The translations under genes and the position numbers were made by a program. Shown piece after piece: positions 32,488 to 33,559 of a stretch of DNA of 52,783 bases (the stretch's first letter is position 1; each line of letters begins with the position of its first letter). The stretch is from Opitutia bacterium. GTDB taxonomy: Bacteria; Verrucomicrobiota; Verrucomicrobiia; Opitutales; T3Sed10-336. The stretch is taken from the NCBI GenBank assembly GCA_003558065.1, contig PWMU01000105.1:1-52783 (forward strand), in the 5' to 3' direction. The notes below the pieces were generated by a model, which saw nothing but the letters and a program-made list of their open reading frames with translations, was not told the origin of the DNA and ran no database searches.

Positions 32488-32832
32488 TTACTTGGTTGCG
32501 GGCTCGTCGCTGAGAACAATGCGGATATGACTGGTGCGTTTGCGGTAAGGCTTGGCCATCCCGCGAGCCCCGGCGCGGAAACGCCGAAATGCGGGGCCCT
32601 GCTCCACCACGGCTTTTTTGATGACCAGATCGTCGGAGGAAAGATTGTTGTTGTTCTCCGCGTTGGCGACGGCGGACTTGAGCGTCTTCGCAACGAGCCG
32701 GGCGGACTTCCGCGGAATGAAGGACAACAGTTCGAGGGCGGCGGACGGATTCCGGCCCTGAATCTCCATCACGATCTCCCGGACCTTCTTGGGAGACATT
32801 CTGGCGTACTTGGTTAAAGATTGGACTTCCAT
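32488..32832 (-). CDS. rplV: 50S ribosomal protein L22
   Basis: L22 lines the narrow part of the nascent-peptide exit tunnel through its long hairpin. The 114-residue product shows VQSLTKYARMSPKKVREIVMEIQG, the hairpin tip FRRFRAGARGMAKPYRKRTSHIRIVLSD, and ALELLSFIPRKSARLVAKTLKSA. Its upstream neighbour is not rpsS, as is usual, but an inserted secreted-protein gene. Confidence 0.96.
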   Translation of the reverse strand: MEVQSLTKYARMSPKKVREIVMEIQGRNPSAALELLSFIPRKSARLVAKTLKSAVANAENNNNLSSDDLVIKKAVVEQGPAFRRFRAGARGMAKPYRKRTSHIRIVLSDEPATK

Positions 32833-32844
32833 GTTTAGATACTG

Positions 32845-33270
32845 TTAATGCTGCACGGTTTTTACGCGGATAAGGTCACCCGGCTCGATGATCTGTTCGG
32901 GAGAAAGACCCACTATCACAGCGGCGCTGACCTGGTCGCGGACCTCAACCATCATGATCTCCGCAACCTGGCTCTCGTCGCGGGTAACGCGGAAAACCAT
33001 TCCCGGCCGATAACCGGAGGCGTAGCCGGCTGGAACCAGCACAAGATCGGTGATTTCAGTGGAAACCACATCGTGTATCCTGGCTGGAATCACGCTCCCC
33101 TGGTCGCGATGGACGAAGTCCGGGCGGGCCGGCGGGGACGCGGCCTCTTCAGCCGCCAACACTCCCGCTCCCAACCCCGACGCAACCACCGCCGCACAGG
33201 CCGGAACGCTTCTTTTCAAACCCGAAAGAATGCCGGAAAACGCTGCTAAACTGTGCGTGGCGGAGGTCAT
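32845..33270 (-). CDS. Secreted protein of unknown function inserted between rpsS and rplV
   Basis: This 141-residue product is not a ribosomal protein. Residues 1-40 look like an export signal: basic KR at 19-20, the hydrophobic ACAAVVASGLGAGVLA, and a likely cut near A39-A40. Then comes a polar linker, then a compact beta-rich domain (about 55-141): VLVPAGYASGYRPGMVFRVTR, VAEIMMVEVRDQVSAAVIVGL, and the ending EPGDLIRVKTV. This Gly-x-x-pGM-F-x-V-x-R pattern recalls small SH3-like repeats in periplasmic proteins of this phylum, but I cannot name a family. It starts 19 bases after rpsS and ends 12 before rplV, so it must be co-transcribed. Thirty-six more open codons upstream would overlap rpsS and read as its shadow. 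No strong ribosome binding site is seen. Confidence 0.72.
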   Translation of the reverse strand: MTSATHSLAAFSGILSGLKRSVPACAAVVASGLGAGVLAAEEAASPPARPDFVHRDQGSVIPARIHDVVSTEITDLVLVPAGYASGYRPGMVFRVTRDESQVAEIMMVEVRDQVSAAVIVGLSPEQIIEPGDLIRVKTVQH

Positions 33271-33289
33271 TGAAAGGACAAAGCCGTCG

Positions 33290-33559
33290 TTATTTCTTCG
33301 TGTGGGATCCGTGTCCCTTGAAGTTTCGTGTGAGGGCGAACTCGCCGAGTTTGTGTCCCACCATGTTCTCGGTGACATGCACCGGGACGAAGGACTTCCC
33401 GTTGTGGACGTTGAAAGTCAGACCGACAAAGTCGGGCGTAATCGTGGAGCGGCGCGACCAGGTCTGCACGGCTTTGCGGCCCCCGGCTTGCTGGGCCTGC
33501 TCGGCCTTGTCCTGCAGGGACGGATCGACGTAAAATCCTTTTTTGATCGAACGTGCCAT
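33290..33559 (-). CDS. rpsS: 30S ribosomal protein S19
   Basis: S19 lies in the 30S head and contacts the A-site tRNA and 50S bridge. The 89-residue product has [18 protein letters not shown], then [43 protein letters not shown] and [10 protein letters not shown]. It lies five bases after rplB and 19 before the inserted secreted-protein gene. Confidence 0.96.

Follow-up and report, generated by a model that had tools for sequence, protein, structure and literature searches.

Few bacterial gene orders are as well conserved as that of the S10 cluster, and the question raised by this locus is why a gene for an apparently exported protein should stand inside it, between rpsS and rplV. The window, the whole stretch of 52,783 nucleotides that was analysed, carries all three genes on one strand, and its genome holds a single copy of the middle one in the S10 operon. 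The arrangement set out in the original prediction, an exported-protein gene lying between the two ribosomal genes in the same direction with gaps of 12–19 nt, agrees with the coordinates and with the Pfam identification of both neighbours (Table 1). A scan of the coding strand detected no promoter-like site between rpsS, the ORF and rplV, and the terminator-like sites found there were not above chance and none was convincing. Like many others in the operon, the inserted gene has no Shine-Dalgarno sequence, and several of the operon's start codons are preceded by pyrimidine-rich stretches.

Table 1. Positions of the exported-protein gene, its parts and its neighbours in the window (feature, position, strand, remarks).
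Exported-protein gene (short form, 141 aa)	32845..33270	-	ATG at 33270, stop at 32845; signal-like N-terminus and C-terminal barrel
rpsS (uS19), upstream neighbour	33290..33559	-	Pfam Ribosomal_S19, E 1.4e-34
rplV (uL22), downstream neighbour	32488..32832	-	Pfam Ribosomal_L22, E 1.2e-34
rpsS-to-ORF spacer, 19 nt, pyrimidine-rich, no Shine-Dalgarno sequence	33271..33289	-	
ORF-to-rplV spacer, 12 nt	32833..32844	-	
Residues 1-40, predicted signal peptide region	33151..33270	-	Hydrophobic stretch; AF2 pLDDT <50 for most of residues 1-44
Residues 61-139, FlgT_C-like six-stranded beta barrel	32854..33090	-	AF2, fold searches, Pfam

Within the order Opitutales the gene, where present, keeps its position. 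By tblastn the gene was found in 17 of 36 relatives, every time in the S19-L22 slot, and a profile search of 223 Opitutales genomes gave 108 positives, 7 of which have longer paralogues only. All 47 gene-bearing genomes that were checked in detail have a homologue in the rpsS-rplV slot, with S19-L22 spacers of 342–558 nt. They include family f17, whose copies are missed by tblastn because their sequence is so diverged (class, order and family labels such as f14, f17 and f76 are codes of the genome set used). In 57 genomes without the gene the S19-L22 spacer measures -4 to 218 nt, mostly less than 50 nt, and contains no homologous ORF. The spacers of several gene-less genomes of family f14 (L069, L070, L090, L092, L106) are unusually long, 81–218 nt, and are possibly relics of the gene. 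The check proposed with the original prediction, a search for the gene at the same place in relatives, thus shows the position kept far beyond the genus.

Other families of Verrucomicrobiae encode proteins of about 200–300 aa in which, as read from sequence, an export signal is followed by a coiled-coil-like region and the same C-terminal domain. The rpsS-rplV slot holds this long form in another 20 genomes of the class (13 of 13 loci and 7 more), and 20 loci in other classes of the phylum have it between S19 and L22. About 20 more loci, from family f76 and from other families outside the class, have no S19 near L22, so that the S10 cluster appears broken; the gene there comes immediately before rplV, placed as if it headed an rplV-rpsC-rplP block (L198-L202, L204-L210, L221, L222, L233, L234, L239). 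Since the gene still stands directly before rplV where S19 no longer adjoins L22, the pairing with rplV has survived the break-up of the operon. In 60 loci from beyond Opitutales the gaps have medians of about 24 nt after S19 and 12 nt before L22, values that rest partly on guessed start codons. Where no strong match was found outside the order, S19 and L22 are separated by 1–98 nt in 18 cases. In G245 (L241) and G237 (L243), both of them genomes reduced to about 0.9 Mb, S19 and L22 lie 313 and 148 nt apart, respectively, with no homologous ORF between them; these spacers are probably decayed copies of the gene. The carriers, judged from how the genomes group, probably include the gut bacterium Akkermansia (family f30, genus g85) and Verrucomicrobium (f53, taken to be Verrucomicrobiaceae). 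For Verrucomicrobium spinosum, genome-wide transposon (TraDIS) essentiality data exist (PMC12283558).

To follow the history of the gene we used a ribosomal-protein tree (FastTree, 113 genomes), many inner branches of which are weak. Presence and absence on this tree need 11 changes. The gene is present in all 18 tree genomes outside Opitutales, which were picked for having matches. Because of this choice, and because gene-less genomes exist outside the order, ancestral presence followed by roughly ten losses inside Opitutales is the likeliest history, probable rather than proven. The Opitutales gene is then probably a shortened form of a phylum-wide ancestral gene, the coiled coil probably having been lost on the long branch to the order. 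What the original prediction took for an insertion in the S10 operon is instead a phylum-wide and probably ancestral gene, not one special to this operon.

A hydrophobic stretch stands at the N-terminus of all 17 aligned homologues, in most of them after basic residues; in the window protein the basic K19 and R20 are followed by ACAAVVASGLGAGVLAA (residues 24–40), and the sequence suggests signal peptide cleavage near residues 40–41. The N-termini of the long forms differ: some look like cleavable signals, others like uncleaved anchors, and at least one, that of L192, contains by eye a lipobox-like motif (VLVAAC). An AF2 model built with seven sequences shows a six-stranded barrel at about residues 61–139 with a pLDDT of about 95 (strands 67–70, 75–79, 92–97, 100–110, 115–122 and 133–138), the N-terminus falling below 50. 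The description of the product as exported and beta-rich is therefore upheld by the model and by the hydrophobic N-termini, and the structure prediction that had been proposed for the C-terminal domain gave a confident AF2 barrel, closest to FlgT by VIA-align and Foldseek. The product does not fit a ribosomal protein, as the window protein matches no ribosomal-protein family in Pfam or NCBIfam and all 17 homologues have the export-like N-terminus.

The AF2 model of the domain has the fold of the FlgT C-terminal barrel (PF16538). In VIA-align the domain model matched FlgT structures 8z5n and 3w1e with Z of 11.2 and 11.0 (rmsd 2.7–3.0 over 81 residues) ahead of the next rows at 9.3, and the full model also placed FlgT first, with Z of 11.6 and 11.1. 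Foldseek with the domain model again ranked FlgT first (E 3.8e-3 and 4.5e-3, TMq 0.54–0.63). Of the Pfam families, FlgT_C was matched most often by the aligned domain sequences (7 of 24, best E 1.7e-6). The window protein itself gave no FlgT_C match at E up to 10, and whole proteins stayed below the gathering cut-off of 27, the best long form reaching 23.8 bits. The barrel is likely a distant relative of FlgT, judging from a modelled similarity at the fold level (Foldseek E above 1e-3). The sequence identity is only about 10%, and the Verrucomicrobiota gene lies in a ribosomal operon, with no flagellar context. A generic small barrel is possible instead, because N-terminal barrels of F1-ATPase (Z 9.9 and 9.3) and MreC 7eft (Z 9.1) rank only 2 Z units lower in VIA-align. 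The best match of the profile in PDB was to the TsaP C-terminal region (3jc8, E 0.033) and was not significant. TsaP (3jc8, 6ve2) is described as a LysM-domain protein, whereas no LysM domain was matched in the window protein or in eight related proteins; TsaP was also not among the fold-search matches listed, which we do not count against a relation.

Taken with the position, these features lead us to a tentative reading, in which our confidence is somewhat short of even: the gene may encode a Sec-exported envelope adaptor or scaffold that has been part of the S10 operon since before several classes of Verrucomicrobiota diverged. Most likely the protein would work as an adaptor or scaffold in the periplasm. 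The mRNA would be read through from rpsS to rplV and the protein exported via Sec. The long form would be anchored in the membrane, its barrel projecting on a coiled-coil stalk, whereas in Opitutales the barrel would be free or only lightly tethered. Just as the FlgT barrel docks in the H/T ring of the flagellum, this one could dock onto a ring or other machine of the periplasm, and the docked protein would then serve as adaptor or scaffold in envelope building. A paralogue in the window genome (L211:6408-7193, G000:C44) has a membrane anchor, a long coiled coil and the same barrel; such anchored coiled-coil paralogues occur elsewhere in the genomes and point to a family of envelope proteins. 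The L211 paralogue sits downstream of ORFs resembling ilvD and glucose-6-phosphate isomerase, as in a relative of the same genus (L133), and its neighbours, read by eye, gave no functional hint.

Encoded in the S10 operon, the protein would be made roughly in step with ribosome output, with a translation yield below that of the ribosomal proteins, and so unusual a place points to a link between ribosome making and envelope building, one that seems not to have been examined before. We found no description of the gene in the literature on Verrucomicrobia rpsS/rplV, PVC signature proteins, Akkermansia locus tags, the outer-membrane proteome or TsaP/FlgT, supplements excluded. A non-ribosomal membrane or export gene among ribosomal-protein genes has a precedent in secY, which lies in the spc ribosomal operon. 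Both are membrane- or export-tied genes inside a ribosomal-protein operon; however, secY is near-universal and its function is known, while the present gene is uncharacterised and, in the genomes tested, confined to one phylum. An exported non-ribosomal protein kept in the S10 cluster over phylum-level distances is a rare marker, and the gene offers a testable handle on the coupling of growth and envelope.

For a link of the gene to growth, synteny speaks in favour, and codon adaptation and frequent loss speak against. Codon adaptation to the ribosomal set is 0.585 for the gene, below all 18 ribosomal genes (0.634–0.736) and towards the bottom of the range of 13 other genes of the window (0.524–0.666). 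The original prediction had it expressed with the ribosomal proteins and took its retention in so constrained an operon to suggest a growth-linked role; a comparable level of expression is not borne out by these values, nor is a growth-linked role, as low codon adaptation and about ten losses in Opitutales argue against a central one. Many lineages can do without the gene. That the envelope protein is co-encoded so that envelope building tracks ribosome synthesis, or that its signal peptide draws S10 polysomes to the membrane, we regard as rather unlikely. It is quite possible, if less probable than the adaptor reading, that the gene entered an ancestral S10 operon by chance and was kept because its excision would disturb rplV, its envelope function being unrelated to growth. 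The codon adaptation, which resembles that of ordinary genes, is consistent with position without regulation, as are the losses, which show that the slot tolerates removal, the gaps left measuring from a few nt up to about 100 nt. On the other hand, about 20 genomes keep the gene directly before rplV though S19 no longer stands beside L22.

The succession of anchor, coiled coil and barrel is common to the long form and MreC (PF04085), and their barrels are similar, which raises the alternative of a divergent MreC-like cell-shape protein. Besides the structural match to 7eft, long forms gave weak NCBIfam MreC matches (E 5.5e-4 and 1.6e-3), and the Akkermansia-like genomes G308 and G360 have the gene and no detectable MreC. 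This account is nevertheless improbable, as FlgT scores higher and the S10-operon protein has a single barrel, not the MreC core. Pfam MreC was not matched by the window protein and was matched by one of eight related proteins, at 14 bits against a cut-off of 28. Moreover, of 19 genomes tested, 17, among them that of the window, encode a separate true MreC above the Pfam cut-off; the S10-operon protein is therefore not the cell's MreC, and an MreC orthologue was set aside. In addition to the operon copy, G308 and G360 (family f30, genus g85) carry two barrel-family paralogues that look like a tandem pair.

Selection on the gene was estimated from dN/dS (NG86), which in close pairs is mostly 0.11–0.26 at dS of 0.1–1.5. 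One almost identical pair gave 0.5 from tiny counts, and distant pairs gave higher but saturated values. The gene is under purifying selection. These ratios also bear on an action in cis, whereby translation of the ORF would guide S10 polysomes to the Sec translocon, or serve as a SecM-type export monitor, and so control rplV. An export signal just upstream of rplV, short spacers and a phylum-wide adjacency to rplV would suit such a role, which we nonetheless judge more improbable still than an MreC-like protein, since selection extends across the whole protein and the long forms comprise 160–400 aa with structured domains. A SecM-like arrest peptide in particular was set aside, the barrel being conserved throughout while the last residues vary and form no conserved C-terminal arrest motif. 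The likelihood of a chance ORF or annotation artefact is negligible: as a single sequence the 141-aa protein matches nothing in Pfam, NCBIfam or PDB, and the gene has no Pfam or NCBIfam family name at cut-off, but the slot is kept in 47 Opitutales genomes and in about 60 from beyond the order, the gaps are short where the gene is absent and dN/dS in close pairs is well below 1. A lack of homologues or of a conserved position, which the original prediction took as the sign of such an ORF, is clearly not what we observed, homologues holding the slot across the order and beyond; from its occurrence in the same place across much of the phylum, the gene is real and ancient.
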